Made by a program: the position numbers and the translations under genes. Positions 1 through 24,682 of a stretch of DNA of 31,708 bases are shown here, in pieces. The number at the start of each line of letters is the position of its first letter. Within the stretch, counting starts at the first letter, position 1. The stretch is from a virus, in IMG/VR virus record IMGVR_UViG_3300030406_004314, positions 1 to 31,708 of that record; one strand, 5' to 3'. The notes under the pieces are model-generated. The model saw only the letters and a program-made list of their open reading frames with translations. It was not told where the DNA came from and ran no database searches.

Positions 1-752
1 TGATGCCAACGATTGAAACGCCACACGACGCTGGCCACGTCTGGGTGCAGGTCTGCCAGCATCTGACTTTTCGGTTTGGTGCCTTCCTCTGCATAAAACT
101 CTTTGGTGTTGCCGCCTTTCATCCGCTGGGTCGTGACTTTGCCGCACAGGAACGCATTGAACTGCACAGTGCAGTAACCGTCTTTCAGCACGCGCAGTGA
201 AAGATCGGTGTCTTCGTTATAGCGACCGCGCCAGCGATACGGGATGTCGTTGCGTATCAGCAGGCAGGAATAGATTCGCGTGTTCAATACGAAGGGCGGC
301 ACCGGATCTGCGGCTTTGGCAAAGCTGTAATAGTTGAAGCCAGCGATGGCGACATTTATATACCTATTTACAAAATCCTCTGCAGCAGCAAAAGTTGCGT
401 CTCCCCTCACTCGGATTTTTTTGTTTCTGTTGAGCCGGTGAAAGTTTTCGAGATTGTCATCGAGAACCCAGTGCCAAGCATGACCCTCTGCTATAGCGTG
501 CTCCCACGCGAAATTACGAGCAGAGCCGGGCCCTTTGGACCTGCCTATCAAAGAGTCGCAGGTGTCGTACTCATCGAGATAGCTTTTTGGCAGGGTCAAT
601 AGATTTTCTGCGCCGTATCGATGGGCATAAAGATCGAACTCCTGCTCTTCGACAATAATCTGAAAAGGAACGCCCATGTTTGTGAGCGCTCTCATTGTGA
701 CTGCGTTTTCTGACCTACCCTTGCTGACTATGTAAATGGGATATTTTTTCAT
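1..752 (-). CDS. TAGT-like DNA glycosyltransferase (3' end beyond window)
   Basis: An open frame of 250 codons runs leftward from an ATG at 752 and leaves the window before any stop, so the C-terminus is missing. It begins MKKYPIYIVSKGRS and contains a DDN motif (VLDDN, about residue 95), an RYNEDTDLSLR block near residue 190, a downstream FLCGK segment and a GGNT motif. This order (nucleotide-binding N-terminus, metal-binding DDN in the DxD position, NEDTDLSLR) matches, from memory, the TET-associated glycosyltransferases of phages, which are thought to put sugars on 5-hydroxymethylated pyrimidines in phage DNA. The start overlaps the end of the upstream gene by 38 bases, so the two are probably co-translated. 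The hydroxylase and methyltransferase expected to work with it are not in this window. The acceptor base is inferred from the family, and another glycosyl transfer is possible. Confidence 0.72.
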   Translation of the reverse strand, partial: MKKYPIYIVSKGRSENAVTMRALTNMGVPFQIIVEEQEFDLYAHRYGAENLLTLPKSYLDEYDTCDSLIGRSKGPGSARNFAWEHAIAEGHAWHWVLDDNLENFHRLNRNKKIRVRGDATFAAAEDFVNRYINVAIAGFNYYSFAKAADPVPPFVLNTRIYSCLLIRNDIPYRWRGRYNEDTDLSLRVLKDGYCTVQFNAFLCGKVTTQRMKGGNTKEFYAEEGTKPKSQMLADLHPDVASVVWRFNRWH

Positions 753-999
753 CAACGTAGATCAACTGATTATGCTCGGCACCCCAATGCGACCGGAACG
801 GATACCAGATGCTTTTGGTTTTATGGGTCAACGTCTGGCCGATCAGTTGTGCAAACTCTTGCAAATCCGCCTCGGTCTCGAAGCGGATGTTGATGCAAGC
901 GTGTGGTTCCTGACGATCCTGCACAAACTCTGGCATATCCTGCCAATGCTCATCCCACCAGTTGGGCTCCTCGCCAAACAGCGTCTGCTGTTCACTCAC
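715..999 (-). CDS. Conserved small phage protein (KTKSIWYP motif), function unknown
   Basis: This 94-residue protein most likely starts at the GTG at 999, which overlaps the stop of the DUF3310 gene (GTGAGTGA). An AGGAG lies seven bases upstream. An in-frame ATG at 1086 would bury 90 bases in the upstream gene and gives a low-complexity Arg/Ser tail, so I reject it. The body reads EEPNWWDEHWQDMPEF, then FETEADLQEFAQLIGQ and KTKSIWYP. I recognise this combination from many phages, where it sits near nucleases, ParB-like or DNA-modification genes, but I know of no assigned function. Here it lies immediately upstream of, and overlaps, the glycosyltransferase, so a link to DNA modification is possible but only inferred. 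Confidence 0.75.
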   Translation of the reverse strand: MSEQQTLFGEEPNWWDEHWQDMPEFVQDRQEPHACINIRFETEADLQEFAQLIGQTLTHKTKSIWYPFRSHWGAEHNQLIYVDEKISHLHSQQG

Positions 1000-2251: not shown

Positions 2252-2318
2252 GCGTAATTTCTCCTTGAGTGTTTGCACAAACTTGCACTAATATACACCG
2301 CGCACACAGGGAGTTGCA
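2252..2318. promoter_or_regulatory. Divergent promoter region with operator-like inverted repeat
   Basis: This 67-base gap separates the leftward operon from the rightward primase gene. On the minus strand, TTGCAA (2314-2319) and TATATT (2290-2295) lie 18 bases apart and make a fair sigma70-type promoter for the leftward operon. On the plus strand, TTGAGT (2265-2270) and TAATAT (2289-2294) are 18 bases apart, which is weaker. Between them is a palindromic GTTTGCACAAAC (2271-2282) followed by a second TTGCAC (2283-2288), which could be a shared operator. All of this is by eye against consensus hexamers. Confidence 0.4.
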
Positions 2319-4454
2319 ATGGCTATAAAAATAAAATCGCAGTCGAAGGACTTGAGCCGACCGCTGAGCGGCGATGTCAGGCGCGAGTTTGTGGACTGGT
2401 TGGCGGGCCATGGTGTCGAGCCAGATAGGCGCAAGGGTCTGGTCGAGAATGAGATTGGACGCGGCACACTGCTGGTGGACAACCGACGCAAGAATCTCGT
2501 GTGGTATATGTGTTGGTTCGATCAAGAGAAGCCCTTCGGATTCTTCGAGCGCTACGACACAAAGGAGCGGGTAGAGTGGCGCACGGAAAACTCAGGCACA
2601 CACAAACTCACCGCTCAGCAGCAAAAAGAGATCGAGCAGGCAAGAGAGCAGGTGCGCATTGCACAGGAGATCGAGCACTCGAAAGCCAGCAAGAAAGCGC
2701 AGACCATGTGGGACGAAGCGAAGCCCTGTGACCTGCACCCCTATCTCGAAACGAAGAAAGTGCAGAGTTATGGTCTAAAGCAATACAACGACGCGCTGAT
2801 GATCCCAGCGTATAACCGCGATTTTGCGGTGCAGACCTTACAGTTCATCTATCCTGATGGGACGAAACGATTTCTCAGGGGCGGCAAGAAGAAAGGTGGC
2901 TTCTTTTGTATTGGTATTGAACACCTCGACACGGCGCACATTATCAATTATGCAGAGGGATACGCGACTGCCGCGAGCTATCACGAGCACAGGAAGGAGC
3001 CAGTGATAGTGTCATTCGATGCGGGCAACCTGCCACCCGTCGCAGACGTCATCTTTTCGTTGTACCCGCAGGCTAAGCACGTCTTCATCGCGGATTTCGA
3101 TGAGAGCAAAACTGGTGAGCGCTATGCGGTCGAAGCGGCGCAGTTGATACGCTCGCAGAGCGGGCAGGCAGATGTCTTGATGCCCACGGAGGTGGGGGAT
3201 TACAACGATCACGCGCAAGCGTTGGAAGGCGAACTAATGCCTAACCTGCAAGAAGTGAACGTGCCGCAGGCGTTCGAGTTCGAGAGAACGGAACGCGGGA
3301 GGGTGCTGCAAACCAAAGAAAATCACCGAGGCGTGCTGATCGTCAATAACATCGACGTGGCTTATGACGTCATCAAGAAGCGCATGAATATCAACATCCC
3401 CAACCTCGACCTGATCAGCGATTTAGAAGAGGATGCCGCCGTGACCGAGATCGAAGATCGAGCGATACAGCTCGGCGTACCGCATGACCGAGTGCGGTTT
3501 AATCTCAAGCTGCTGGCCCGCGAATCCAACCCTGTTGCTGAGTGGATTACGAGCAAGGTATGGGATGGGCAGAGCCGATTGCAGGCGCTTCTCGACACCG
3601 TAAGCGCAGAGGACGATGCGCTCAAAGAAATCCTCATGCGCAAGTGGCTGATCAGTTGTGTAGCTGCGGCGTGTGGGCCCGAGGGTGTATCGAGCGAGGG
3701 CATACTGGTGTTCGTGGGCAGGCAGGCAATCGGCAAGACGCAGTGGATGAAGCGGCTGGCCCCGCAGGCTGACTGGCTGCTCGAAGGCGCCACGCTGAAT
3801 CCGAGCGACAAGGACAGCGTGAAGCAGTGCGTTTCTCACTGGATTTGCGAGCTTGGCGAGCTGGGCAGTACGTTCAAGAAGGCAGACCTCGATCAGCTCA
3901 AGGCATTCATCACGAAGAGCCACGACGAGTTACGCCTGCCCTACGACCGTGGCTTCAGCCGATACCGCAGGCGCACTTGCTTCTACGGGTCGGTGAACGA
4001 GAACGAGTTTCTATCCGACAGCACGGGCAACCGACGCTTCTGGGTCGTGCGCGTCAGCGCAATCAACTGGCGGCACGGCATCGATATGCAGCAGGTTTGG
4101 GCGGAGATCAAGGAGCGATATTATGACGTCGGAGACGGCTGGTTCCTCACTAGCGAGGAGCGCGAGCTGCTGAACGAAAGCAATGAGATGAGCAGGACAC
4201 AGAGCGCGGTCGAAGACCTCATCCTCCAGCACGTCAGGTTCCAGTCCCAACAAACAAAGCCAGTGCAGATGACCGAGCTACTGCGGGACTTCGGGATCAA
4301 GTCGCCACGCGCCGCTGACTTCAAGGAGGCTTCGCGGGTGCTGCAGGCAAATGGCATCACGCCGCGCAGATCGAACGGGCGCAAGATATATGATCTTGAC
4401 TGGGATCGCATCGAAGATGGCGGCGGTTACAACGCGCCCAACTGGAACGACTGA
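2319..4454 (+). CDS. Primase/helicase: TOPRIM-type N-terminus plus VirE-type AAA+ ATPase
   Basis: A 711-residue replication protein. Residues about 130-300 resemble the TraC/TOPRIM primase region: WDEAKPCDLHPYLETKKVQS, then FIYPDGTKRFLRGGKKKG, YAEGYATAASYHE and VIVSFDAGNL/HVFIADFDE, the last two supplying the acidic residues expected of TOPRIM. Residues about 410-640 match virulence-associated E (VirE) ATPases: a Walker A GRQAIGKT at 467-474, a Walker B-like WICELGELG at 508-516, then FYGSVNENEFL and TGNRRFWVV. The C-terminal 90 residues look like a winged-helix tail. Such fused proteins prime and unwind phage DNA. A GGGAG lies seven bases before the ATG at 2319. It is followed directly by a repeat array (4455-4752) that may be its origin. 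Confidence 0.85.
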   Translation: MAIKIKSQSKDLSRPLSGDVRREFVDWLAGHGVEPDRRKGLVENEIGRGTLLVDNRRKNLVWYMCWFDQEKPFGFFERYDTKERVEWRTENSGTHKLTAQQQKEIEQAREQVRIAQEIEHSKASKKAQTMWDEAKPCDLHPYLETKKVQSYGLKQYNDALMIPAYNRDFAVQTLQFIYPDGTKRFLRGGKKKGGFFCIGIEHLDTAHIINYAEGYATAASYHEHRKEPVIVSFDAGNLPPVADVIFSLYPQAKHVFIADFDESKTGERYAVEAAQLIRSQSGQADVLMPTEVGDYNDHAQALEGELMPNLQEVNVPQAFEFERTERGRVLQTKENHRGVLIVNNIDVAYDVIKKRMNINIPNLDLISDLEEDAAVTEIEDRAIQLGVPHDRVRFNLKLLARESNPVAEWITSKVWDGQSRLQALLDTVSAEDDALKEILMRKWLISCVAAACGPEGVSSEGILVFVGRQAIGKTQWMKRLAPQADWLLEGATLNPSDKDSVKQCVSHWICELGELGSTFKKADLDQLKAFITKSHDELRLPYDRGFSRYRRRTCFYGSVNENEFLSDSTGNRRFWVVRVSAINWRHGIDMQQVWAEIKERYYDVGDGWFLTSEERELLNESNEMSRTQSAVEDLILQHVRFQSQQTKPVQMTELLRDFGIKSPRAADFKEASRVLQANGITPRRSNGRKIYDLDWDRIEDGGGYNAPNWND

Positions 4455-4752: not shown

Positions 4753-4764
4753 TTGGATTTTGAG

Positions 4765-5295
4765 ATGAGCGAAGAGCCGAAACGCAAACGCGGGCGTCCG
4801 CGTAAAAGCAAACCGGAGCTGGTCAAGACGCCGATGAAGTTCGAGGCTGATCCTGAGCTGGAGCTGACAGAGATGCAGGCAGCTTTCGTGTGGTATTACA
4901 CCGAGGGCGCGTGCGGTCAGACTGAGGCAGCTCGACGTGCTGGCTTCAACTTCCCCGGTTCTTCTGCGAGCAGACTACTGGATGGCGAGACGCATCCGAA
5001 TGTGGTGAAAGCGATCCGCATGAAGCAGGAGGAGCTGCGAGCCAAGTACGCGATCACACCGGAGAAGACTGGATCGATGTTGTGGAAAATCGCGGAGACA
5101 AGTTTCGAGGGGGGAAACTACAACGCGGCAGTGAGCGCAGTGAAAGAGTTGAACCAACTCGCTGGCCTGACGATACAGCGCAGTCAGAATCTCAACATCA
5201 ACGCGAACGTGGACAAGATGAGCAAAGAAGATATCAAGGCGAGACTGAACGAGCTGCTAGGCATGGAGGCTGGTTTCGACAGCAAAGATCACTGA
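4765..5295 (+). CDS. terS: Terminase small subunit
   Basis: A 176-residue protein of the Terminase_2 type, which recognises phage DNA and loads the packaging motor. It opens with a basic AT-hook-like segment (KRKRGRPRKSK), followed by LTEMQAAFVWYYTEGACGQT, then EAARRAGF and SRLLDGETHPNVVKAI, the helix-turn-helix region of this family. ITPEKTGSMLWKIAETS and AVSAVKELNQLAGL then form the oligomerisation helices. ATG 4765 is chosen. A TTG at 4753 in the same frame would add four residues, and neither has a convincing ribosome site. Its usual partner TerL is 18 kb downstream at 23198, an uncommon separation. Confidence 0.88.
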   Translation: MSEEPKRKRGRPRKSKPELVKTPMKFEADPELELTEMQAAFVWYYTEGACGQTEAARRAGFNFPGSSASRLLDGETHPNVVKAIRMKQEELRAKYAITPEKTGSMLWKIAETSFEGGNYNAAVSAVKELNQLAGLTIQRSQNLNINANVDKMSKEDIKARLNELLGMEAGFDSKDH

Positions 5296-5805: not shown

Positions 5806-6210
5806 ATGGTGGACAGCAGAAACAAGGGCGCGGCTTTCGAGAGAGACATTGTAAAACGTCTCAATGTTTTTTTTGAGGAAAACGATCTCGAAGTGCGTTG
5901 CAAAAGGAATCTTGACCAGTATCAGGCGAGAGACCTCTGCGATATCGAAATACCGGACTACGCCATCGAGTGCAAAGCGTACAAAGATGGCTGGTGGTTC
6001 TCGAAGAACTGGTGGGAACAGGTCTGCGATGCGGCAGGCGACAGAACTCCCGTTCTCATCTGGAAGTTTAACAACAAGCCGATTCGCGTTACTCTACCGA
6101 TCAGCGCCCTTAACCATGGTTTGGAGTGTGAAGGCGTGGCTGTCATTTCATTCGAGGATTGGCTGGCGTTCCTTCGCGAAGGCTGGGTTGAGGATCAGAG
6201 GGTCGCATGA
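5806..6210 (+). CDS. PD-(D/E)XK nuclease, Holliday-junction-resolvase-like
   Basis: A 134-residue protein that is probably a metal-dependent endonuclease cutting branched phage DNA during recombination or before packaging. NKGAAFERDIVKRLN supplies the N-terminal helix with E12. RDLCDIEIPDYAIECKAYKD supplies the core: D46 at the end of a strand, then E55-C56-K57 as the (D/E)xK pair. WWEQV with Q72 sits where Hjc-like enzymes have a conserved helix residue. Length is typical of archaeal-type Hjc and phage resolvases. There is no clear Shine-Dalgarno before ATG 5806. The stop overlaps the next start as ATGA, so the polyvalent gene is probably translated from the same message. A related very short patch or restriction-type nuclease is possible. 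Confidence 0.7.
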   Translation: MVDSRNKGAAFERDIVKRLNVFFEENDLEVRCKRNLDQYQARDLCDIEIPDYAIECKAYKDGWWFSKNWWEQVCDAAGDRTPVLIWKFNNKPIRVTLPISALNHGLECEGVAVISFEDWLAFLREGWVEDQRVA

Positions 6211-8600
6211 GTAGATTCGGCATAATGCGGCCCGGTCGTAATCCAACCGTCAATCGCTACGCGGGAGAAGAGCAGCCGCTTGGCAGTCCAGCGCAGACGG
6301 CAAACATTGCGGGTGCTTTTGCGGATCCGCTTGGCCTGATTGACATCTTCGGTCAATACCCAGCTTTTCCAGAAGAGGGCATGACAGTCGCGGAAATGGC
6401 GGCGGGCCCGCGATCCCCAAGCTTGGCGCAGAACATTGCAGACAAGGAATATCTGACGGCTATTATCCAGTTGGCGGGGGCAATACCTGCCATGGCGCCC
6501 GTGAGCAAGGCCGCTCGACAGGCGCTGCGTGCATATCATGGGACTCCGCATAGGTTCCCTGCCGCTCAAAGAATCCGCAACAAAGTGTCAGGCGAAACTT
6601 TTGTCGCTGAATTGGACAATCCGGTACATCGATCCATTTTAGAAGGCAAGTTCGGCGACAACTATGAGCTTGTCGGAGAGCCTAGCGATCTTGGCTTGTT
6701 TGACATGAACCGGATTGGCCAAGGCGAGGGTGCCCAAGCATTTGGTCGCGGTCTTTATTTCTCTGGCTCCGAAAATATCGCGAAAGACTATCGAGAAGAT
6801 CTCACAGGAATTACTCAAAGAATGCTCGACAATCTTCCCAATATGGAGATTGGCAAGCAGGCGGGATCAGGCAGATACGCTCTTTACGACAAAGAGACCG
6901 GATTCCTCGATACAGATTATCCTTCATTTGCGACAGAAAAAGAGGCTCAGGAGTATATCGACAACCCGCCAACGGGGGCCCTCTACTCCGTCGATCTGGA
7001 CGTTGATGAGTCAATGCTTCTGGATTACGACGCACCTCTAATCGATCAGTATTTCAAGGTAACCGATGCGGTTTTCGAAACGCCGTTTGTGAAAAAGCTC
7101 GTGAAAGCCATGGAAGAGCGAGGCGGATATGTTGACATGGCAGGCGACGTTCTCGATAACAGAGGCGTTGATGTTCCAGAAGGGGCAGATATTTATGAGC
7201 TTCTGGAAAATTCTACTTTCGAAGACATCGAAAATTTCGCCAGTAACTTCCCAGACGAATTAGGGGGTCCAGAGCAACGCGCCAGAGATCTAGCCAAACA
7301 ACTGAAAGAAGCAGGAGTGCCCGGCATTTCTTACGAGGCGGGTCGCCATAGTGGGTTTATCGGAGACGATGCCGACAAAGTAAAAAATTATGTGATCTTC
7401 GATGACGAGCTGATTAAGATCGTAGATCGGAAACGGGAGGGCGGACCAGTCATGGACCCCACGATTGACATCTTCGAGCCAGAAGAGCCCATGAATCGTC
7501 GCGAACGTGCTCAGGCACAGCGGGAAATGCTGGCCCGCGCCAACGATCCCATCTTGACACCAGCGCAGGCGGCTAACGTCGGCGGAGGATTTGCGCCCGC
7601 TGCTGGCCTTGCGGATGTGCTCGGCTTGTATCCTGCGTTTCCTGATGCAGACATGACGGTTGAGGAGATGGCTATGGGCCCGCGCTCGCCGAGCCTTATG
7701 CAGAACGTCATGGAAGGCAACCTTCTGGATTCAGCTCTGCAACTGGCGGGTGTTTTGCCTGTTATTGGGGGCGTCGCGAAAAGCGCCCGAGTGGCCCGTG
7801 GAATCCGGTCGCTGCCTATTGATGAGCAGATTCAGACCGTTGCCCGCGCAAAAGAAGGGGTCCACGGCGGAGAGTCAGTATTTGCTCCTGATCTGTTCAA
7901 GCAGACCGGCACTCAGGATGTAAGGCGAGCAGAGGAGGCGTTGAAGAGCAACCAGTCGGATTTGCAAACCATAGATCAGATGGTAGAGCGTGCCGAGTCA
8001 GTCAATACAGATTTTCAACAAAACATTGCTGACATCGCTTCAAGTAACGGCGCCAAGAAAGCAGACAAGTTCATCACGCTCCGCGACGGAAGTCCCTTTG
8101 ACGTCGAGGTGAAAACCAAAAAAAGCATAAATGAGAAAATAGAAAGAAAAGGTCTTGCGCCAAATCAGTTCACAGATGGCGTGCGCACATCTGTATACGT
8201 CGATTCTGCGGAGCAAGCCGAGAAAATTGCATCAGAGATTGGGCAAGCGTATCCGAGCATTGATCGTGGATGGCAAGTGATGCCAGAGACTGGATACTTT
8301 GATCGCAAGATGAATGTCGCAATCACGGATCCGAAAACGGGCGGCGTGATTATCGGTGAGGTTCAGATCAAGACGCCAGAGATGGCAGAGGCAGGAGTGG
8401 TGGGACACAGGTGGTACGAGATTACTCGAAAGCTGGAGGGTCGATACAACCAAGACATACCGCCGCAGAAATACAAAACTTATGTGGATGCGCGTGCTGA
8501 GCAGCAACGCATTTATGGTGGTGCTACTGAAGCAGCAGACCCGAATATCTTGGACCTGCTGCTGGAGAAGTTTAGGCTTGGGGGATTGGTGGCAAGGTAG
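6207..8600 (+). CDS. Polyvalent protein: duplicated leader, ADP-ribosyltransferase-like and RelA/SpoT-like domains
   Basis: A 797-residue multidomain protein. Residues about 32-105 and 448-525 are two copies of one leader: NIAGAFADPLGLIDIFGQYP matches NVGGGFAPAAGLADVLGLYP, and AGPRSPSLAQNI matches MGPRSPSLMQNV. After the first leader comes an ART-PolyVal-like ADP-ribosyltransferase: AYHGTPHRF (H111), GEGAQAFGRGLYF (179-185) and a closing GISYEAGRHSGF with NYVIFDDELIKI (373-408). After the second leader, residues about 635-760 resemble a RelA/SpoT nucleotide-pyrophosphokinase: KKSINEKIERKG, then TDGVRTSVYVD, MPETGYFDRKMNVAI and GEVQIKTPEMAEAG, with the Asp and Glu in the places of the metal-binding and catalytic residues. 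Polyvalent proteins of phages are often injected with DNA to act on the host; that role is inferred here. ATG 6207 overlaps the nuclease stop. Its 3' end overlaps the convergent gene by 29 bases. Confidence 0.75.
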   Translation: MSRFGIMRPGRNPTVNRYAGEEQPLGSPAQTANIAGAFADPLGLIDIFGQYPAFPEEGMTVAEMAAGPRSPSLAQNIADKEYLTAIIQLAGAIPAMAPVSKAARQALRAYHGTPHRFPAAQRIRNKVSGETFVAELDNPVHRSILEGKFGDNYELVGEPSDLGLFDMNRIGQGEGAQAFGRGLYFSGSENIAKDYREDLTGITQRMLDNLPNMEIGKQAGSGRYALYDKETGFLDTDYPSFATEKEAQEYIDNPPTGALYSVDLDVDESMLLDYDAPLIDQYFKVTDAVFETPFVKKLVKAMEERGGYVDMAGDVLDNRGVDVPEGADIYELLENSTFEDIENFASNFPDELGGPEQRARDLAKQLKEAGVPGISYEAGRHSGFIGDDADKVKNYVIFDDELIKIVDRKREGGPVMDPTIDIFEPEEPMNRRERAQAQREMLARANDPILTPAQAANVGGGFAPAAGLADVLGLYPAFPDADMTVEEMAMGPRSPSLMQNVMEGNLLDSALQLAGVLPVIGGVAKSARVARGIRSLPIDEQIQTVARAKEGVHGGESVFAPDLFKQTGTQDVRRAEEALKSNQSDLQTIDQMVERAESVNTDFQQNIADIASSNGAKKADKFITLRDGSPFDVEVKTKKSINEKIERKGLAPNQFTDGVRTSVYVDSAEQAEKIASEIGQAYPSIDRGWQVMPETGYFDRKMNVAITDPKTGGVIIGEVQIKTPEMAEAGVVGHRWYEITRKLEGRYNQDIPPQKYKTYVDARAEQQRIYGGATEAADPNILDLLLEKFRLGGLVAR

Positions 8601-13127: not shown

Positions 13128-13553
13128 ATGAAGGGCATTGAGGGCGCAATCGAGTTTGCGCTTCATGCTCATGCTGGTCAGGTTGACAAGGGTGGGGCGC
13201 CGTACATCACGCACCCCCTCCGAGTCATGGCCGCTGTCAATGGTCCTGAGCACGTCAAGATTGCGGCAGTTTTGCATGACGTTGTTGAGGACACCGACAC
13301 CACTGTGGGCGACATCGATGACCATTTCGGCATCAGGGTTGCGGAGTTGGTGTTGCTGCTGACGCGAGTCAAGGGAGAGAGCGACGATGAGTATTATGCA
13401 GAGATCCTCAAGGATCCCGAGGCAGTTGCCATCAAGATCGCAGATCTCGAAGACAACATGGACGTGACTCGACTCAAGGTGGTCGGTCCAGCAGATGCTG
13501 ATCGACTTGAAAAGTATGTTGCGCGACACGCGCTTTTATCAGGGAGAACCTAA
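13128..13553 (+). CDS. (p)ppGpp hydrolase-like HD protein (MESH1/SpoT-type)
   Basis: 141 residues from ATG 13128, with GGGAGGG about seven bases upstream; ATG 13086 lies within the promoter and is rejected. The layout matches small alarmone hydrolases that remove the 3'-pyrophosphate from (p)ppGpp: KGGAPYITHPLRV with H29, AAVLHDVVEDT with the H50-D51 pair plus E54-D55, an LLTRVKGES segment, and KIADLEDNM with D106. All expected Mn-binding and catalytic positions are present. There is no synthetase, TGS or ACT domain, so it is hydrolase-only and has typical length for the class. It may keep alarmone low during infection, or neutralise the synthetase-like domain in the polyvalent protein at 6207-8600. 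NADPH-phosphatase activity, known for MESH1, is an alternative. Confidence 0.85.
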   Translation: MKGIEGAIEFALHAHAGQVDKGGAPYITHPLRVMAAVNGPEHVKIAAVLHDVVEDTDTTVGDIDDHFGIRVAELVLLLTRVKGESDDEYYAEILKDPEAVAIKIADLEDNMDVTRLKVVGPADADRLEKYVARHALLSGRT

Positions 13554-13817: not shown

Positions 13818-14050
13818 TGAACGCGGCTGAGAAGAAGGTTTTCTATAACCGCGTGCGGCGCACCTGCAAACTGCACGACATCGACATCGTGTATGAAGGT
13901 GTGCCGAAAGCCTACCGCTCGGTCTGTTTGGTCAAGGATGGCCACACGATGTTCGCAGATCGGGCAGAGGACTGGCGCCCTCTCGACATTAACTGGAAGC
14001 GACTCCACGAAGAGATGACTGACTACGGTTTTCGCGGCGGCATAAAATGA
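13817..14050 (+). CDS. Small basic hypothetical protein (CKLHDID motif)
   Basis: 77 residues from ATG 13817 in a TGATG overlap. It begins MNAAEKKVFYNRVRRTCKLH, and the CKLHDID block resembles CKLHDMD in the gene at 12760. Family not recognised. Its stop overlaps the recombinase start. Confidence 0.62.
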   Translation: MNAAEKKVFYNRVRRTCKLHDIDIVYEGVPKAYRSVCLVKDGHTMFADRAEDWRPLDINWKRLHEEMTDYGFRGGIK

Positions 14051-14847
14051 TCGTGAGGCCAGTCGGCCAGAGACACAATCGTGTGTATGGTTACATCAGG
14101 GTCAGTTTGGCAGACGTCAATTCCGAAGATCTTTCAGTCGAACGACAAAGGCGGTTAATCACCGCCTTTGCTGCATCTAAGTATGAAAAGTCCGTCGATG
14201 AGTTTTTCATCGACACTGAGTGCTTAGGGTCCACAAAAATTCTGGAGCGCGAGGCTGCTCGTGAGATGACCGATGTCATGGAGGAACATGACGTTGTGAT
14301 TACGACGCGGCTCGACAGGCTGAGTATGTCAGTGCCAGACCTGATGGAGATGATTCCGCACTTTCAGCACACTGGTGTACATTTGTACTTTTGTGAGCAG
14401 TTTGGAGATATGCCGATTGCTCACCGCGAGCCTGATCGCCAGATCGAGGGGATGGAGCATCACGTCGATCTTGATAGCCGAGTCCATGGTGTTTTTACGA
14501 TGGCGCTGCAAGCGATCAATCAATTGGCAGCAGCCGCGAAGCGCGACAAGTGTGAGCACAAAAAAATCGAGTTGGTCAGAAAGGGGTTTTGGTCAGGCGG
14601 GCCCAATATCCCGTATGGATTCAAACTCAAGCGAGTGGAGCATGAAGGCAGAATACGCCCATGGCTTGAGCCGGTGCCCGAGCAACAACGCTGGGTCCAG
14701 TTAATTTTCAAAATGCGTGAGCGAAAAATGAATTACTCCAAAATCGCTCGCGAGATAAATTCCCTTCAAAATGATCGGGTGTGGAACCCGTCGCAAGTGC
14801 GCAACGTCTTGCGTCAGCCCGAAAGGTACACTGTCCAATCCTCATAG
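14047..14847 (+). CDS. Short serine recombinase, atypical active site
   Basis: 266 residues. The N-terminal resolvase/invertase domain shows YGYIRVS with nucleophile S20, QRRLITAFAASKYEKS, and the DRL helix near residue 95. Residues about 175-260 form the 'Recombinase' DNA-binding domain (GFWSGGPNIPYGFKL, then SKIAREINSL and WNPSQVRNVL). Large serine integrases run on for 200 or more further residues with a zinc ribbon and coiled coil; these are absent here. The family's LDRLGR(D/S) motif is LDRLSMS here, so the second of two active-site arginines is replaced by Met. It could be a divergent invertase or resolvase acting on fibre or accessory DNA, or a weakened remnant. No att-like repeat was found beside it. 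ATG 14047 overlaps the previous stop. Confidence 0.78.
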   Translation: MIVRPVGQRHNRVYGYIRVSLADVNSEDLSVERQRRLITAFAASKYEKSVDEFFIDTECLGSTKILEREAAREMTDVMEEHDVVITTRLDRLSMSVPDLMEMIPHFQHTGVHLYFCEQFGDMPIAHREPDRQIEGMEHHVDLDSRVHGVFTMALQAINQLAAAAKRDKCEHKKIELVRKGFWSGGPNIPYGFKLKRVEHEGRIRPWLEPVPEQQRWVQLIFKMRERKMNYSKIAREINSLQNDRVWNPSQVRNVLRQPERYTVQSS

Positions 14848-14860
14848 AAGTTTGTATGAT
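14832..14860 (+). promoter_or_regulatory. Possible promoter before the virion gene block
   Basis: TATGAT at 14855-14860 matches five of six -10 positions, and TGTCCA lies 17 bases upstream as a weak -35. It sits between the recombinase and the first structural gene and overlaps the recombinase end. Low confidence. Confidence 0.3.
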
Positions 14861-14892
14861 AAGTCTGCGATTTTTTGGGGCGCGGCTTTTTT

Positions 14893-15195
14893 ATGTCAGC
14901 TTTAACAGGTTGGGGCAGACAGGGCTGGGGATCCGGTGGATGGGGAGAAGCTGCTCCGGTCGAGCCGACTGGTGTCGCAATCACCTCCGGTGTTGGCACA
15001 GCAAGCATATCTCTGAGCAACGTCGGTCAGCCTTCTGGTGTGGCAGTTTCTGTCGGCTTGGGAAGCGTATCAGGAGTGCCGGGCACTAACGTCAATGCCA
15101 CTGGCGTCGAGATTAGGGCAGTTGCTGGCACGCTATTTTTATGGTTTCCAATTGATACTAGCCAGACTCCAAACTACACTCCCATAGAGAGATGA
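14893..15195 (+). CDS. Gly/Trp-rich phage structural protein
   Basis: 100 residues from ATG 14893. It opens MSALTGWGRQGWGSGGWGEA, followed by Val/Gly/Ser-rich beta repeats (VAITSGVGTASISLSNVG). Short proteins with this GWG...WGSGGWG start are common at the head of tail-fibre gene clusters in marine phages and are presumed virion appendage parts. The ribosome site is poor. An ATG at 14875 would add six residues without improving it. Confidence 0.65.
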   Translation: MSALTGWGRQGWGSGGWGEAAPVEPTGVAITSGVGTASISLSNVGQPSGVAVSVGLGSVSGVPGTNVNATGVEIRAVAGTLFLWFPIDTSQTPNYTPIER

Positions 15196-15204
15196 GGATT
15201 ACTT

Positions 15205-16128
15205 ATGGCTACTTATGTAAATAACCTGCGGCTAACCGAGCTGGCCACTGGCGAGGGCTCGGGAACTTGGGGCACGACAACCAACTCGAATCTCGAATTT
15301 ATCGGAGAGGCGCTTGGGTTCAATACTCAGGCGGCTTTCTCTTCGGACGGCGACGCAACCACCACGGTGGCGGACGGCGCGACTGACCCAGCCCGAGCCT
15401 TTTATTTTAAAGTCACCAGCGGCACAAGCCTTACCGCCACCCGCACGTTGACGATTGCGCCGAATACCGTCAGCCGAGTCATGTACATCGAGAACGCTAC
15501 CAGCGGCTCACAGTCCATCGCCATCAGTCAAGGTTCTGGTGGTAATGTCACCATCGCGAACGGCGAAGCAGCGATTGTTTATCTCGATGGCGCAGGCTCC
15601 GGTGCCGCAGTGGTTGACGCCAACACCGCATTGTCTACCACCAAGATTAATACCGCCACTTTGGCAATTGGCGGCACAGCCGTGACTTCTACGGCAGCGG
15701 AGCTGAATCTGACAGACGGCGCGACTGCTGACACAGTGGTAAACAGTAAAACTGTGGTCTATGGCGCTGCTGGGCAAATCACCGCCAACGAATTGGATGT
15801 CGATAATATTCAGATCGACGCAAATGCCGTTAAGTCCACCAACTCGAATGGGAATGTCCAGTTGTTTCCAAATGGCACGGGATTTACCGAGCTGTATGGC
15901 AACACAAATCCCGGCACGATTCGCTTTAACTGTGAGAGTAATTCCCACGGGGTCACACTCAAAGGTCCGCCTCATAGCGCGAGCGCAACATATTCACTTG
16001 AACTGCCTGATGCAGTTGCAACCAGCAACGGGATGGCACTGGTTTCTACAACCGCAGGCAAGTTGAGTTTCAGTAGCAGTTTCGCAAGTACGGGCAAAGC
16101 CATCGCTATGGCAATAGTCTTTGGATAG
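15205..16128 (+). CDS. Tail fibre-like structural protein
   Basis: 307 residues. It begins MATYVNNLRLTELATGEGSG followed by TWGTTTNSNLEFIGEALGF, a start I recognise from many marine phage fibre proteins. The body is beta-rich and low in charge (NTVSRVMYIENATSGSQSIA, then TSTAAELNLTDGATADT, a motif frequent in fibre shafts). It ends with KGPPHSASATYSLELPDAVA before a short hydrophobic tail. It probably forms a trimeric fibre contacting the host surface. It lies next to other appendage genes in the late module. Confidence 0.75.
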   Translation: MATYVNNLRLTELATGEGSGTWGTTTNSNLEFIGEALGFNTQAAFSSDGDATTTVADGATDPARAFYFKVTSGTSLTATRTLTIAPNTVSRVMYIENATSGSQSIAISQGSGGNVTIANGEAAIVYLDGAGSGAAVVDANTALSTTKINTATLAIGGTAVTSTAAELNLTDGATADTVVNSKTVVYGAAGQITANELDVDNIQIDANAVKSTNSNGNVQLFPNGTGFTELYGNTNPGTIRFNCESNSHGVTLKGPPHSASATYSLELPDAVATSNGMALVSTTAGKLSFSSSFASTGKAIAMAIVFG

Positions 16129-16138
16129 GAGATAACTC

Positions 16139-16513
16139 ATGGCCGCACCAAATATCGTCAACGTCGCTACCATCACGGGCAAAAGCGCCGTTGTTAATTT
16201 AAGCTCGACTTCTGCAACCGCAGTGGTTTCTAACGCCGCAAGCTCTGGCAAGGTGTTTAAGATTAATTCAATCCTAGTCGCCAACGTAGATGGTTCGGTT
16301 GCGGCAGATATTACTCTTGCATATTACAGTCAGGACGATATCGGCGGGACCGCTACGGAACTGTTGAAAACGGTATCAGTGCCGCAGGATTCAACGCTGG
16401 TAGCCTTCGACAAGAACACGGCGTTCTATCTGGAAGAGGATAAAAGTATCGGCGCTACCGCCAGCGCCGCAAATGACCTGAAGGTTTTCGTAAGCTACGA
16501 AGAAATCAGCTAG
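16139..16513 (+). CDS. Small virion appendage protein
   Basis: 124 residues with AGGAGATAACTC before ATG 16139. The sequence is Ala/Ser/Val-rich with regular strands (NIVNVATITGKSAVVNLSST, then VFKINSILVANVDGSVAADI and STLVAFDKNTAFYLEEDKSI). This pattern of a small beta-sandwich is common among phage structural proteins that decorate tails or fibres. Function is inferred from composition and neighbours. Confidence 0.62.
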   Translation: MAAPNIVNVATITGKSAVVNLSSTSATAVVSNAASSGKVFKINSILVANVDGSVAADITLAYYSQDDIGGTATELLKTVSVPQDSTLVAFDKNTAFYLEEDKSIGATASAANDLKVFVSYEEIS

Positions 16514-16522
16514 GTCTGAGCC

Positions 16523-18040
16523 ATGAAGTTCTTAGGCAAAGACCCCAACATCATTGATGCTTACTACACCGCTACGGCTGAAGGTGCGATTACGGCTGGA
16601 AAGCCAGTAATTGTGGAGACTGATGGTGATGTCGCGCAAGTAGCTTCAAGTAGTTCTGTGCTTTCTACGCCATCTCTCGGCACCTCCGCAGAATTTACGG
16701 GGAACACTGGCGGCGCTACGCCCATAGAAACGGTGTATGACGCCAACGCAGATAAGTTTTTAATATTTTACCAAGAGCGCGATACCGGCACATATTATGG
16801 AAGGGCCAAGGTAGCGACTGTCTCTGGTGACAGTGTTTCATTTGGCGCGGCCTCTGCCAATTTAGCCGCAGGCGCAGGGAATGGTCGTGGAATGTGCATT
16901 TTTCTTTCTGGTTCTTACGACTCAAGCGCACAAAAAATACTGATGGTTTTTAGGAACTCAAGCAACAGCAATTACAGCACAGCACAGGTTGCGACTATAT
17001 CAGGCACAACTGTGTCCTTTGGCACGTCAGCTATTTTTTATAGTAACAGTTCTCTGTATCACAGGGTGGTGTATGACGCAAATGCCGGTAAACATTTGAT
17101 TGTTTATCTAAACACGAGCCAACAAGCGGTTGGAATTGTAGCGACCATATCAGGCACCAACGTGAGTTTTGGCAGTCCCACCGCACTTAGCGCAGGAGCA
17201 ACTCGCTCAGAACATTTTGGATTAGCTTATGACTCAAACGCACAAAAATCCCTTTTGGTCTATGGCGACTCAAATAACAGCAACTACGGTACAGGGCAGG
17301 TTTGCACGATCAGCGGCACAGAGGTAAGCGCGGGCACAGCGGCTGTTTTTAACAGCGCAGACACTCAATTTTCTGAGGCTAATTATCAAACCACAGCACA
17401 AAAACACGCGGTTTTATATGCTGATGCAGGCGGCGATGATTATGGAGAGGGCTGCGTTGCAACCATTAGTGGTACAGATGTGACATTTGGTTCGGCGACA
17501 GCTTTCTGGACTGCTGTCGGGAGCGGCTCTTCTCCTCAAGATATGGGTGTAACTTACGACTCAAGTGCAGATCGCACAATTTTTGCATTTCAAAATGACG
17601 GCGGCACTGTTACTAGGGCCGTGATGATGGCGACGATCTCTGGAACATCTATTAGTTTTTCTAGTAGCGTAGAATTTGTCAGCGATAGTGCTAGCGGCGT
17701 AAGCGCCAGAATTGCTTACGGCTCTGGCGTAGACAGATCGTTATTGGTATACCGAGACACAACGGACGGCAATGCAGGCGACGCGAGAACGGTCAAAGCA
17801 AGTACCACGTCTACCAATCTGACTAGTGAAAACTACATAGGCATTGCCGCTGATACCTATGCTGATAATGAAGATTCAACCATCGGCATAGTCGGCTGCA
17901 TAGACCGTAATCAAACCAGCCTGACAGCAGGCCAGCAATACTTCGTTCAAACCGATGGCACATTATCGACTACAGCAGGCGATCCTTCTGTTCTGGCTGG
18001 CACGGCCATATCTGCCACAGAATTGGTTGTGAAAGAATGA
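16523..18040 (+). CDS. Seven-repeat beta-propeller-like adhesin, paralogue 1
   Basis: 505 residues. After a capping segment (GAITAGKPVIVETDGDVAQV), seven repeats of about 50-57 residues run from residue 71 to about 425. Each has the pattern YD(S/A)xAxKxLxVYxD...VATISGTxVSFG; for example YDANADKFLIFYQE and YDSSAQKILMVF. Seven such units suggest a seven-bladed propeller, a fold used for binding carbohydrate or protein. The C-terminal 80 residues (NLTSENYIGIAADTYADNED and LTAGQQYFVQTDGTL) are shared with the next two genes. It is probably a receptor-binding or fibre-tip protein. No enzyme motif is evident. The stop overlaps the next start. Confidence 0.72.
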   Translation: MKFLGKDPNIIDAYYTATAEGAITAGKPVIVETDGDVAQVASSSSVLSTPSLGTSAEFTGNTGGATPIETVYDANADKFLIFYQERDTGTYYGRAKVATVSGDSVSFGAASANLAAGAGNGRGMCIFLSGSYDSSAQKILMVFRNSSNSNYSTAQVATISGTTVSFGTSAIFYSNSSLYHRVVYDANAGKHLIVYLNTSQQAVGIVATISGTNVSFGSPTALSAGATRSEHFGLAYDSNAQKSLLVYGDSNNSNYGTGQVCTISGTEVSAGTAAVFNSADTQFSEANYQTTAQKHAVLYADAGGDDYGEGCVATISGTDVTFGSATAFWTAVGSGSSPQDMGVTYDSSADRTIFAFQNDGGTVTRAVMMATISGTSISFSSSVEFVSDSASGVSARIAYGSGVDRSLLVYRDTTDGNAGDARTVKASTTSTNLTSENYIGIAADTYADNEDSTIGIVGCIDRNQTSLTAGQQYFVQTDGTLSTTAGDPSVLAGTAISATELVVKE

Positions 18041-19533
18041 AGACTTTGGGCGACACGCTGGTAAGACGATTCAAGGCCAAGGCTAGCGGCTCAATTACCG
18101 CAGGCAAGCCTTGTCTTGTTGAGGCTGACGGTGATGTGGCGGAAGTATCAGGAACTACATTTTCGACCATAACAGGGACAGAATCTGTTGTTGAGTCTGC
18201 GGAAAGCTATTACATCAGAACTGTTTTCGATAGCACGGCAAACAAGTTTGTGATTGTATATTCAGATGGCGGTAATTCTTCTTACGGCACTGCGGTGGTC
18301 TGCACCCCAAGCTCTGATGGGACGAGAAGCTATGGCACTCCTGTGGTTTTTAACTCTGGAAGTTCCAATTGGATCGCCTGTACCTACGATAGCAACGCCG
18401 ACAAGACGTTAGTTTCTTTCAACACTGGCGCAGAAGGCAAGGCAATCGTTGGAAGTGTAAGTGGGTCGGCTATCAGCTTTGGTAGCGCGGCTACCTTTGA
18501 GTCTGCATCCTCAGAACACATTGATTCGTGTTTTGATTCGACTAACAACAAGGTTGTGATTGCTTATCAAGACAACGCAGACAGTTCCAAAGGCAAGGCT
18601 GTTGTAGCAACTATCTCAGGTACGAGTGTGAGTTTTGGCTCAGTGGCTCAGTTTGAGGCAGGCGCAACTACAGTGATTAGTTGTGAGCATGACAGCACAA
18701 ATGGAAAGGTGCTTATCGCGTATTGCGACGAAAGCAACTCTTTTTATGGAACGGCGATTGTTGGCACTGTTAGCTCGACAAGTATTAGTTTTGGCAGTGC
18801 TACTGTTTTTTATAGCGGCGATATGCGTAGTGTCCGTACAGATATGGCCTTTGATCCAAACGCAGGCAGATTTGCCGTTATTTATGCACAAAACTCAGGG
18901 GGCCAAAATGGGGCTGTCACCATAGGAACGATTAGCGGCACATCCGTCAGTTTTGCTGGAGGGTCGGTTGATTTTGATACCGGCGTAATATCGCGAACAA
19001 GGGGTATAGCCATCTGCTTCAACAGCGCCACAAATAAAATGAATATCTTTTTCGCAGACAATGCAGACAGCGGGAAGGGTTACGTTGTCCAAGGAACAGT
19101 TACCGGCACAAGTTCACCTTATCTTGGGTCAATTACTTCTAGGGTAGCCTTTCACAACATTGGCTATGTCCAAGACATAAGTGCCGCCTTCGACACTAAC
19201 TTGAATTTTTCTTTGGTGGCGTATCAAAGACAAAAAAGCTCAGTTCATGGGAGTACGCAAAATTACGCCGTTGCAAATATTATGCGCCCAGTGGCATTTA
19301 CTACGACCAACTTAACCTCAGAAAACTTTATTGGCTTTGCAGAGTACGCGGCGTCTGATACAGAAACAGCTACGGTGCTGATTAAGGGCGGCGTTAGCCC
19401 AGATCAGTCAAGCCTGACGCCTGGACAAACTTACTTCGTGCAAACAGACGGCACGATAACAACGTCAGCAGGCACTCCAAGCGTTACCGCTGGCACCGCT
19501 GTTACATCTACTAAGTTGATAGTGAAGGGCTGA
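18037..19533 (+). CDS. Seven-repeat beta-propeller-like adhesin, paralogue 2
   Basis: 498 residues, with the same architecture as its neighbours: cap (GSITAGKPCLVEADGDVAEV), seven repeats (first FDSTANKFVIVYSDGGNSSY, third FDSTNNKVVIAYQDNADSSK) and the shared C-terminal module (TTNLTSENFIGFAEY, LTPGQTYFVQTDGTI). Repeats 5 to 7 are more divergent than 1 to 4. The start ATGA overlaps the previous stop, so it should be translated in step with paralogue 1. Probably part of the same adhesin complex. Confidence 0.72.
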   Translation: MKTLGDTLVRRFKAKASGSITAGKPCLVEADGDVAEVSGTTFSTITGTESVVESAESYYIRTVFDSTANKFVIVYSDGGNSSYGTAVVCTPSSDGTRSYGTPVVFNSGSSNWIACTYDSNADKTLVSFNTGAEGKAIVGSVSGSAISFGSAATFESASSEHIDSCFDSTNNKVVIAYQDNADSSKGKAVVATISGTSVSFGSVAQFEAGATTVISCEHDSTNGKVLIAYCDESNSFYGTAIVGTVSSTSISFGSATVFYSGDMRSVRTDMAFDPNAGRFAVIYAQNSGGQNGAVTIGTISGTSVSFAGGSVDFDTGVISRTRGIAICFNSATNKMNIFFADNADSGKGYVVQGTVTGTSSPYLGSITSRVAFHNIGYVQDISAAFDTNLNFSLVAYQRQKSSVHGSTQNYAVANIMRPVAFTTTNLTSENFIGFAEYAASDTETATVLIKGGVSPDQSSLTPGQTYFVQTDGTITTSAGTPSVTAGTAVTSTKLIVKG

Positions 19534-19534
19534 T

Positions 19535-21019
19535 ATGAGCTACATAGGCAGACAGCTTAATCTACCAGCCAGCACGGTTCAGTTGACGGCGGGTGGCGCG
19601 ATTACCGCAGGCAAGCCTGTCGTAATTGTTCCACCGGGAGCATCAGTGGGTAGCGCGGTTAATTTTGAGTCATCAAACCTATCAGCAGATTGCGGCGTGG
19701 CCTCTGTTTACGATAGTAGCAATAACAGGATTGTTATTGCTTACGGCGCGGGTGGAGGAGAAAATGGAACAGCAGTCGTAGGCACTGTGAGCGGAGACTC
19801 TATAACTTTTGGCACTCCGGTAGTTTTTAAGTCGGGAAAAAGTTCAAAAATATCCATAGCCTTTGACAGTAATGCAAACAAGGTAGTGATTGCTTATGAG
19901 GACTTTAGTAATTCTTCTTATGGCACCGCGATTGTTGGAACCGTAGACCCTAGCGACAACTCAATAAGTTTTGGTAGCTCAGCAGTGTTTGAGAGTGCGG
20001 CTATTTCCGGTGACGCTGCATTTTTCACCTTCTCAACTTTCGACTCAAGTAATAATAAAGTGGTCATCGCGTACAACGACAACGGCAATTCAGACTACAT
20101 GACCGCTGTTGTTGGCACAGTTTCGGGGACGAGTATCAGTTTTGGGACTCCGGTAGTTTTTGAGTCGGCAAGCGGAGGCGTTTTAGGAGCAACATTCGAT
20201 TCGAGTGAAAACAAGGTGGTCATCGCCTTCAGAGATGGGGGCGATAGCGATAAAGGTAAAGGGATTGTTGGAACGGTCTCCTCGACGAGTATCTCTTTTG
20301 GAACTGCGGCACAGTTCAGCGCTTCAACTCGCGCTGGTTACGGCGGTGCTGTTTTTGATAGCTCAAACAATAAGGTCGTTTTTAATTATTCTGGAAGCAC
20401 GGATGGCGGCAGTAATTTTATTGGCTTGAGTGTTGTGGGAACGGTCTCCTCCACATCGATTAGTTTTGGCAGTGAGGCTACTTTTGAAACGGGTGAACCA
20501 AAAAATATTTCTGCGGCATTTGACTCAGTTGCTGGCAAGGTTGCCGTTTCCTATATGGATGACGCCGATAGCGACAAAGGCAAGGTTGTCATGGGGACTG
20601 TCAGTGGCACTTCAATAACTTTTGAAGACCCAGTAGTTTTTGAAAGCGGCGCTATCACCAAAAATACGGGAACCGCTTTTGACAGTTCAGCAGGGCGAGT
20701 GGTTATTAGCTTTGCAGACGATGGGGATAGCTCTAAAGGTAAATCAGTTGTTGCTAGAAATACTGTTTTAACAACAGCCGCTCAAGTAAGCTCCAACCTC
20801 ACCTCAGAAAACTTTATTGGTCTTGCAGAAAACGATGCTCCAGATGGGGGTTTAGCCACCGTACAGTTGGGTGGCTCAGTCAATGATAAGCAAAGCGGAT
20901 TGACGGCAGGTCAAACGTATTTTGTACAGACTGATGGCACAATAGGCACAACTGCCGACTCCCCATCCGTGACGGCAGGCACAGCAGTTTCAGCAACCGA
21001 AATATTAGTAAAGGGCTAA
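19535..21019 (+). CDS. Seven-repeat beta-propeller-like adhesin, paralogue 3
   Basis: 494 residues. The most regular of the three: repeats such as FDSNANKVVIAYEDFSNSSY, FDSSNNKVVIAYNDNGNSDY and FDSSENKVVIAFRDGGDSDK are nearly interchangeable, each followed by GTVSGTSISFG. It has the same N-terminal cap (GGAITAGKPVVIVPPGASVG) and C-terminal module (SNLTSENFIGLAENDA, LTAGQTYFVQTDGTI). The DxGDSDKGK loops at blade edges are acidic and could bind Ca2+, which is inference only. It starts one base after the previous stop. Confidence 0.72.
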   Translation: MSYIGRQLNLPASTVQLTAGGAITAGKPVVIVPPGASVGSAVNFESSNLSADCGVASVYDSSNNRIVIAYGAGGGENGTAVVGTVSGDSITFGTPVVFKSGKSSKISIAFDSNANKVVIAYEDFSNSSYGTAIVGTVDPSDNSISFGSSAVFESAAISGDAAFFTFSTFDSSNNKVVIAYNDNGNSDYMTAVVGTVSGTSISFGTPVVFESASGGVLGATFDSSENKVVIAFRDGGDSDKGKGIVGTVSSTSISFGTAAQFSASTRAGYGGAVFDSSNNKVVFNYSGSTDGGSNFIGLSVVGTVSSTSISFGSEATFETGEPKNISAAFDSVAGKVAVSYMDDADSDKGKVVMGTVSGTSITFEDPVVFESGAITKNTGTAFDSSAGRVVISFADDGDSSKGKSVVARNTVLTTAAQVSSNLTSENFIGLAENDAPDGGLATVQLGGSVNDKQSGLTAGQTYFVQTDGTIGTTADSPSVTAGTAVSATEILVKG

Positions 21020-22765: not shown

Positions 22766-23205
22766 GGATTTCCCCCCACGGCATCGCTCTTATCAAACAC
22801 TTTGAGGGGTGTGAGACAACCGCATATCAATGCTCTGCAAATGTCTGGACGATTGGGTACGGGCATACGCGGGGTGTCAGAGAAGGCGATAAAATTACCG
22901 AAGACAAAGCGGAGTATCTTCTTCTTGAAGATCTGAAACACTTCGAAGGCTTTGTGGACCGCTTGGTCGAGGTCAGCTTGAATCAAGACCAATTCGATGC
23001 GTTGGTTGCTTGGACCTTTAACTTGGGCCCAACGAATCTTGGTGAAAGCACGTTGCTCAGAAAGCTCAATCAGGGACACTACGACGAGGTGCCCAGTGAA
23101 ATGGCACGCTGGAACAGATCTGACGGCAAGGTCTTGGAGGGTCTGAAAAGGCGCCGCAAGGCAGAGGGCCTGCTCTGGCAAGGACTCGACTGGAAGGATG
23201 TCTAA
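22762..23205 (+). CDS. Phage lysozyme (GH24 endolysin) with E-C-T triad
   Basis: 147 residues. A muramidase that cleaves the glycan chain of peptidoglycan for release of progeny. FEG gives catalytic E15. Counting E-x8-C-x5-T gives C24 and T30 (VWTIGYGHT), so the usual Asp of the T4-type triad is Cys, as in the P1/phage 21 class of endolysins. FDALVAWTFNLGPTNLGEST and RWNRSDGKVLEGLKRRRKAE complete the domain. There is no signal-anchor segment at the N-terminus, so export must rely on the adjacent holins. The start overlaps the previous stop, and the end overlaps TerL. Confidence 0.9.
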   Translation: MRISPHGIALIKHFEGCETTAYQCSANVWTIGYGHTRGVREGDKITEDKAEYLLLEDLKHFEGFVDRLVEVSLNQDQFDALVAWTFNLGPTNLGESTLLRKLNQGHYDEVPSEMARWNRSDGKVLEGLKRRRKAEGLLWQGLDWKDV

Positions 23206-24682
23206 TTTAGCACTAAAAGATTTTGACATTCTTTCTGAACAAGAGAAGCAAGAGGCTCTGGCCCTGCTTCAGCGTTACGAGACAATAGAGCAGCAGGAAG
23301 ACTGCCAGAAAGACTTCATTCGCTTTGTGAAAAGCCAGTGGCCCGAGTTTGTCGAGGGGCGCCATCATCGCATAATCGGTGAAAAATTTAATCGGATCGC
23401 TCAAGGAAAGCTAAAGAGGCTTATCGTCTGCTTGCCTCCGCGTCACACTAAGTCGGAATTTGCCTCTACTTTTTTCCCAGCATGGATGATGGGTCTCAAG
23501 GGCGATCTCAAGATTATTCAGACCACCCACACTGCTGAATTGGCAGTCAGATTCGGCCGCAGAGTGCGGAATATCATCGACTCTGATGAGTATCAGACCG
23601 TCTTTCCAGAATTGAAGCTGCAAGCTGACAATAAAAGCGCAGGCCGCTGGACCACAAACAAGGGCGGCGAATCGTTCTACGCAGGTGTGGGCGGTGCAAT
23701 TACAGGTCGCGGCGCTGATCTCCTTATCATTGACGATCCGGTCTCGGAGCAAGACGCTCTGAGCCCGACCGCCATGGATTCAGTTTATGAGTGGTACACC
23801 TCTGGGCCCCGCCAGCGTCTTCAGCCGGGCGGTATTATCGTGATCGTAATGACCCGATGGAGCACCAAAGACCTCGTGGGTCGCGTCTTGAAAAAGCAAG
23901 GCGATGATTATGCAGATCAGTGGGAAATTGTGGAGTTTCCCGCCATCATGCCCGAATCCGATACGCCACTTTGGCCAGAATTTTGGAAAAAAGAGGAACT
24001 TTTGAGTGTCAAAGCCTCTTTGCCTCTGTCCAAGTGGAATGCTCAATGGATGCAAGATCCGACAGCGGAAGAGGGGTCCATTGTTAAGCGGGAATGGTGG
24101 AACAAGTGGGAGCCAGATTATGTGCCCGAATATGAATACGTCATCCAAAGCTATGACACCGCTTTTTCGAAGAAAGAAACGGCGGACTACAGCGCCATCA
24201 CAACGTGGGCGGTTTTCAAGCCTAGAGATAGCGAGCCCGACGCCATCATTTTGCTCGATGCAAAGCGTGTCAGAGCTGATTTTCCAGAACTGAAAAAGCT
24301 GGCTTGGGAGGAGTATAAATATTGGGAGCCTGACTGCGTATTGATCGAGGCAAAGGCATCTGGCACCCCGCTCACACAGGAGTTACGGCGTATAGGCATA
24401 CCGGTCACCGCCTATACACCGAGCAGGGGGCAGGATAAGATTGCCAGAATGAACTCTGTGGCCCCTATTTTCGAGTCTGGCATGGTTTGGGCTCCAGAAG
24501 AGGCATTTGCGGAAGAAGTGATTGAAGAAATGGCTGCTTTTCCGTATGGAGACCATGATGACTACTGTGACTCGGCCACAATGGCCTTGATGAGGTTCCG
24601 ACAGGGCGGTTTTCTGTCACTTGGAGACGATTATCAAGTAGAAATTCACCCTATGAGACGTGACAGAAAGGTTTATTACTGA
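23198..24682 (+). CDS. terL: Terminase large subunit
   Basis: 494 residues. It is the ATPase and nuclease of the packaging motor. Walker A is a variant without Gly, PPRHTKS at residues 80-86; Walker B is LLIIDD with D179-D180; the coupling motif is VMTRWS at 218-222. The RNase H-fold nuclease follows: SYDTAF with D320, VLIEAKASGTPL with E384, and GDHDDYCDSATMAL with D454-D458. Length is normal and no key residue is missing. ATG 23198 overlaps the lysozyme by eight bases, placing lysis immediately upstream of packaging. The small subunit is far upstream at 4765. Confidence 0.95.
   Translation: MSNLALKDFDILSEQEKQEALALLQRYETIEQQEDCQKDFIRFVKSQWPEFVEGRHHRIIGEKFNRIAQGKLKRLIVCLPPRHTKSEFASTFFPAWMMGLKGDLKIIQTTHTAELAVRFGRRVRNIIDSDEYQTVFPELKLQADNKSAGRWTTNKGGESFYAGVGGAITGRGADLLIIDDPVSEQDALSPTAMDSVYEWYTSGPRQRLQPGGIIVIVMTRWSTKDLVGRVLKKQGDDYADQWEIVEFPAIMPESDTPLWPEFWKKEELLSVKASLPLSKWNAQWMQDPTAEEGSIVKREWWNKWEPDYVPEYEYVIQSYDTAFSKKETADYSAITTWAVFKPRDSEPDAIILLDAKRVRADFPELKKLAWEEYKYWEPDCVLIEAKASGTPLTQELRRIGIPVTAYTPSRGQDKIARMNSVAPIFESGMVWAPEEAFAEEVIEEMAAFPYGDHDDYCDSATMALMRFRQGGFLSLGDDYQVEIHPMRRDRKVYY

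Follow-up and report, generated by a model that had tools for sequence, protein, structure and literature searches.

The window, that is, the whole 31,708-nucleotide stretch analysed here, is an IMG/VR fragment that carries terminase genes, a portal gene (phrog_1216) and a Mu gpT-like capsid gene. Judged by portal and capsid, the phages closest to it among those cultured or annotated are DSL-LC04, 023Pt_psg01, HTVC023P/HTVC027P and CRP-901/902, and the phage group of HTVC023P/CRP-901 relatives has been described as abundant in the ocean (PMC10149686). Behind the genes for the small terminase subunit and a PDDEXK_15 nuclease lies a gene whose ATG overlaps the stop codon of the nuclease gene (ATGA), and which encodes a protein with two copies of an 80-aa segment, hereafter the leader, each heading a different putative enzymatic module (Table 1). 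A gene for an HD-domain small alarmone hydrolase, identified by TIGR00691 (E 1.3e-20), is located further downstream. The region 14047-21019 contains a serine recombinase gene immediately upstream of tail-fibre-like genes, which include three similar ~500-aa proteins, and this recombinase is possibly a fibre-switching invertase.

Table 1. Features of the window that bear on the two-leader protein and its surroundings.
Feature	Position (nt)	Residues	Strand	Remark
Small terminase subunit	4753..5295		+	Conserved neighbour upstream of leader genes
PDDEXK_15 nuclease gene	5806..6210		+	Near-constant neighbour upstream of leader genes
Two-module polyvalent effector protein, 797 aa	6207..8600		+	ATG start
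Cassette [leader 1 + ART]	6207..7449		+	Present in the window, missing from L003
Leader copy 1	6285..6524	27-106	+	
ART-PolyVal-like domain (likely)	6528..7421	108-405	+	Pfam score below cut-off; relatives score better
ART motif YHGT	6534-6545	110-113	+	
ART motif GEGAQAFGRGLYF	6723-6761	173-185	+	
ART motif NYVIFD	7386-7403	394-399	+	
Junction motifs EGGPV and TIDIF	7437..7475	411-415 and 419-423	+	Between modules
Leader copy 2	7557..7796	451-530	+	
GIRSLP motif		532-537		
RelA/SpoT-type synthetase core (predicted)	8109..8417	635-736	+	
Rel motif FTDGVR	8169-8186		+	Invariant
Rel motif GYFDRKMN	8292-8315		+	Invariant
Rel motif EVQIKT	8358-8375		+	Invariant
Rel motif GHRWY	8403-8417		+	Invariant
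C-terminal GGxV motif LGGLV	8577..8591	791-795	+	
HD-domain small alarmone hydrolase	13128..13553		+	ATG 13128, good RBS; candidate antidote or resetting enzyme for Rel
TerL	23198-24682			
Portal	24682-27189			phrog_1216

The two leader copies share 54% identity and 69% similarity over 80 aa without gaps (BLASTP E 1e-29), and their local alignment score of 212 compares with a maximum of 53 among 500 shuffles. The duplication proposed in the initial annotation was thus confirmed, with borders slightly shifted from residues 32-105 and 448-525. The DNA identity between the copies is ~61%, indicating that they are old rather than the product of a recent tandem duplication. The leader has no match in Pfam, PHROGs or NCBIfam, and AF2 confidence on it is very low. 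The window protein as a whole has no match in PADLOC or NCBIfam, and the full leader-bearing proteins likewise have none in PADLOC. No peptidase match pointing to a metallopeptidase domain for self-processing was found in the window protein with Pfam, and no MuF domain was detected with Pfam or PHROGs.

The region behind leader 2, previously annotated as RelA/SpoT-synthetase-like, retains this assignment on the basis of profile matches in its relatives and of its predicted fold. The RelA/SpoT profile PF04607 remains under its cut-off in the window (E 0.0067 with the full-length protein, 0.0014 with the segment alone). It matches all 15 relatives (best E 2e-6), with L018 attaining the 27-bit cut-off. 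The AF2 model of the segment is fair in the core alone (pLDDT ~60-83 over most of segment residues 140-300). Nearly all of its best 50 Foldseek matches in the PDB are SAS, Rel or SpoT proteins (E 2e-5 and weaker), with SAS1, Rel and SpoT on top at a probability of ~1.00 and low TM-scores, the model being partly disordered. This modelling confirmed a Pol-beta-type Rel fold for the leader-2 module, which is a predicted synthetase. Among PDB sequences, the Rel profile also hit a toxin B subunit, which is unrelated (E 0.3); this match was dismissed as chance. Residues D657, R660, Y697, E718, Q720 and H734 show no variation across the Rel family. The usual motifs of the RelA/SpoT family are of the DxxGxR type and YxSLH; the window module resembles RelA/SpoT-type small alarmone synthetases in its fold and in the invariant D/R, Y, ExQ and H positions, but has FTDGVR and GYFDRKMN in place of these two motifs.

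The module behind leader 1 is likely ART-PolyVal-like, as the initial annotation had suggested, an assignment that is carried by the motifs and by better-scoring relatives, and not by the profile score or fold of the window copy itself. ART-PolyVal (PF18760) stays under its cut-off in the window (E 0.37 for the whole protein, 0.018 for the segment; 12-16 bits against a cut-off of 31.2), whereas the relatives score better, with 28.5 bits (E 2.9e-6) for the aligned relative L108 and an E value of 5e-4 for L040. The AF2 model of this region (pLDDT 42) is too poor for use, and Foldseek returned nothing significant with it.

Leader profiles were built and used to scan viral contigs, yielding 100 matches, 77 of them distinct, in 64 distinct ORFs of uncultured phages. 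About 15 domain types follow the leader across these ORFs, so that the leader heads a family with many C-termini rather than belonging to one fixed protein, in line with the earlier proposal of a constant leader with varied partners. Under working labels for local families, the domains directly behind a leader are Rel_A (17), ART_B (15), ART_A (7), zeta kinase (7), U (5), a DUF3990-like ART-type region (4), V (3), GNAT (3), a short L102C type (3), ART_C (2), ARTexo, a second ART-like family (2), an L126 type (2), and Rel_B, X132a and L020mid (1 each). Pfam matches among these partners include Zeta_toxin (E 2e-19), ART-PolyVal (1.7e-18, in L114) and, weakly, GNAT, and a PBECR5 nuclease (E 3e-18) occurs further down one leader array (L160). 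A relationship between ART_A and ART_B was considered and dropped, as profile-profile comparison gave no significance. Several independent contigs encode two or three leader units per chain, the largest array noted being LEADER-ART-LEADER-U-LEADER-Zeta in one chain. Leaders and effectors do not always pair one to one, because some effectors have no leader directly in front and some arrays carry several domains behind one leader. From these domain families we infer an anti-host role for the effectors.

A search for the leader in 50,697 annotated genomes of phages gave no match at E <8, and the leader HMM had no match in the first 50 kb of each of five related phage records. Bacterial genomes yielded a single match, 32 aa long and located at the edge of a locus. 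Domains U and V, which are common behind the leader and have no Pfam match, are related to each other (hhalign probability 98%) and are carried by L016, L040, L050, L114, L132 and L123, as well as by gp72 of CRP-902. Residues ~471-745 of L108, after its ART module, form a metallopeptidase-like segment with the sequence HEFRH, which lacks Pfam support and is present in this leader protein alone.

Cassettes have been cleanly gained, lost and swapped between near-identical phages. The window and L003 are 95.5% identical up to base 6206 and 92.7% identical from base 7450, and differ by precisely leader 1 and the ART module. Most of the flanking kilobases of L009, L018 and L019 are ~97% identical; L009 encodes a leader-Rel protein, whereas directly behind the leader L018 carries an ART-like insert of ~567 nt and L019 a GNAT insert of ~363 nt. 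The leaders of L004, L023 and L025, with 86-88% amino acid identity, are followed by Rel_A, Rel_B and a zeta kinase, respectively, among which no significant similarity was found.

Short linear motifs mark the borders of the modules: DIDIF-type, GGxV and GIxSL motifs are repeatedly found at module borders and termini. In 39 non-redundant proteins, the DIDIF-type motif was observed 47 times against 0.7 expected from shuffles (43 of the 47 in linkers or termini), GGxV 93 times against 27 and GIxSL 55 times against 6.5, counts that are descriptive rather than an independent test, as the motifs were defined after the sequences had been read. In a DNA search with the N-terminal tag, all tagged ORFs that were read in the retrieved contigs bear a leader. 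DIDIF as a general virion tag was rejected, as it is absent from the other proteins of G018, G020 and the window. GGxV and GIxSL are also present in tape-measure-like proteins; these motifs are short, and the link is suggestive only. One tape-measure/transglycosylase-like protein (L083, G018 2307-4304) has a GGxV motif like those at effector junctions (YADGGNV vs YADGGSV).

Such cassette exchange could also arise if the leader were a linker that favours recombination and has a hydrophobic stretch but no docking role, spreading via homologous recombination at a conserved segment. Leader homology would itself permit unequal recombination, and the 19-residue hydropathy maximum, too modest for the leader to be called a membrane hairpin, is just ~1.0-1.6. 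However, polar and charged positions are conserved across diverged leader copies, the leader is kept at the first position in nearly all proteins, and the linear motifs recur at junctions and termini, making a mere linker very improbable.

The HD hydrolase is associated with the Rel effectors. It occurs nearby in 10 of the 12 Rel_A contigs with enough sequence, compared with 1 of the 20 other contigs (Fisher p 1e-5; ~0.006 once the contigs are collapsed by clade, approximately and by hand). Loci with a noted HD gene include L018, L037, L084, L137, L149 and L150. A phage precedent is the toxin Apk2 with its hydrolase immunity Aph1 (PMC12226406), which the HD-Rel pairing resembles. Rel and HD may accordingly be read as a toxin-antidote or superinfection-exclusion module, with the other effectors serving as weapons against competing phages or bacteria under a MuF-like logic; the G018 group, in which the HD gene is convergent with leader-Rel at 174-180 bp, and L038/L039, in which it is missing beside the zeta kinase, would fit this reading. 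Nevertheless, the pairing is not strict, since in the window and G020 the HD gene lies 3.5-4.5 kb from the leader gene and G020 carries a zeta kinase without Rel. The only lysogeny-type gene identified is the serine recombinase beside the tail-fibre-like genes. On balance, the toxin-antidote or superinfection-exclusion reading is rather improbable.

The genomic position of the leader genes bears on whether their products enter the virion. Most leader genes with retained upstream sequence come after TerS and PDDEXK, and in the main clade the gene lies outside the head operon, behind this block and near replication genes. This placement, together with the lack of any virion protein domain fused to the leader proteins, would suit early intracellular host-takeover enzymes that never enter the virion, with the leader serving in targeting, folding or regulation. 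In six loci (L078, L079, L102, L106, L108 and L156), by contrast, the leader gene lies between TerL and the portal gene, and proteins with this set of effector domains are predicted to be injected (PMC5512222), so an exclusively intracellular role appears unlikely. In the cultured phage CRP-902 (L094), gp72 (L094:43095-44405, minus strand) is a homologue of U (E 2e-27) and gp65 a homologue of the PBECR5 region (E 7e-19). These are the nearest homologues of the effectors in a cultured phage. The genes for both lie among the head genes that separate portal from GroES/capsid, and both proteins start with MANPVK...LG..VID, an N-terminus unlike the leader, suggesting a second leader type. The same effectors on another leader in a relative fit a delivery or docking role.

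The leader is probably a docking or delivery module that carries interchangeable effector cassettes into the virion, which the six TerL-leader-portal loci and the head-block effectors of CRP-902 make the best reading. This reading is weakened by the lack of a known packaging domain in the leader, by the very low model confidence and the main-clade position noted above, as well as by the loose leader-effector pairing, the weak ART assignment in the window and the restriction of DIDIF. The polyvalent chain consists of interchangeable cassettes, each typically an ~80-aa leader with one or more enzyme domains, strung together and joined by GGxV, DIDIF and GIxSL motifs. Under virion delivery, the machinery with which the phage packages or ejects its DNA would recognise the leader, and any effector fused behind it would enter a new host together with that DNA. 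Inside this cell, host proteins would be targets for modification by the ART, and the Rel-type enzyme would produce a nucleotide resembling an alarmone, bringing host synthesis to a halt. The HD hydrolase near a Rel effector would guard the producing cell, or else reset the signal.

Phages and conjugative elements are known to encode polyvalent proteins, a class of multi-domain effectors (Iyer et al. 2017, PMC5512222). The leader proteins share with them the presence of several unrelated enzyme domains per chain, at least two (ART-like and Rel) in the window protein, the encoding by phages with portal-terminase packaging, as in the window, and a repertoire of ART, RelA/SpoT, PBECR, GNAT and zeta-like kinase domains. 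They differ in the repeated leader without a family-library match and in the junction motifs; the metallopeptidase common in polyvalent proteins, and not found in the window protein, is not obligatory. MuF polymorphic toxins (PMC5576092), including Apk2 (PMC12226406), likewise combine a constant N-terminal part with a swappable C-terminal toxin, RelA-like toxins among them, and Apk2 has an HD hydrolase immunity, as Rel has an HD partner here. In contrast, the leader proteins have no MuF domain, can carry two or more leader-effector units in a chain, and their HD gene is not always adjacent. The effector repertoire is already known from polyvalent proteins and polymorphic toxins, and what is new is the reiterated leader, the linear junction motifs and the plug-in cassettes. 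More tentatively, the leader and linear motifs may together be an undescribed virion-loading and ejection tag of this marine phage group, with plug-in effectors, several per chain, and matching antidotes, which would constitute a MuF-independent polymorphic toxin system.

Near-identical phage pairs that are one effector cassette apart make the phage's choice and loading of virion proteins directly testable, and the U and V domains are candidates for new effector activities. The leader and junction motifs provide a sequence handle for finding injected effectors in the widespread uncultured marine relatives of HTVC023P and CRP-901.
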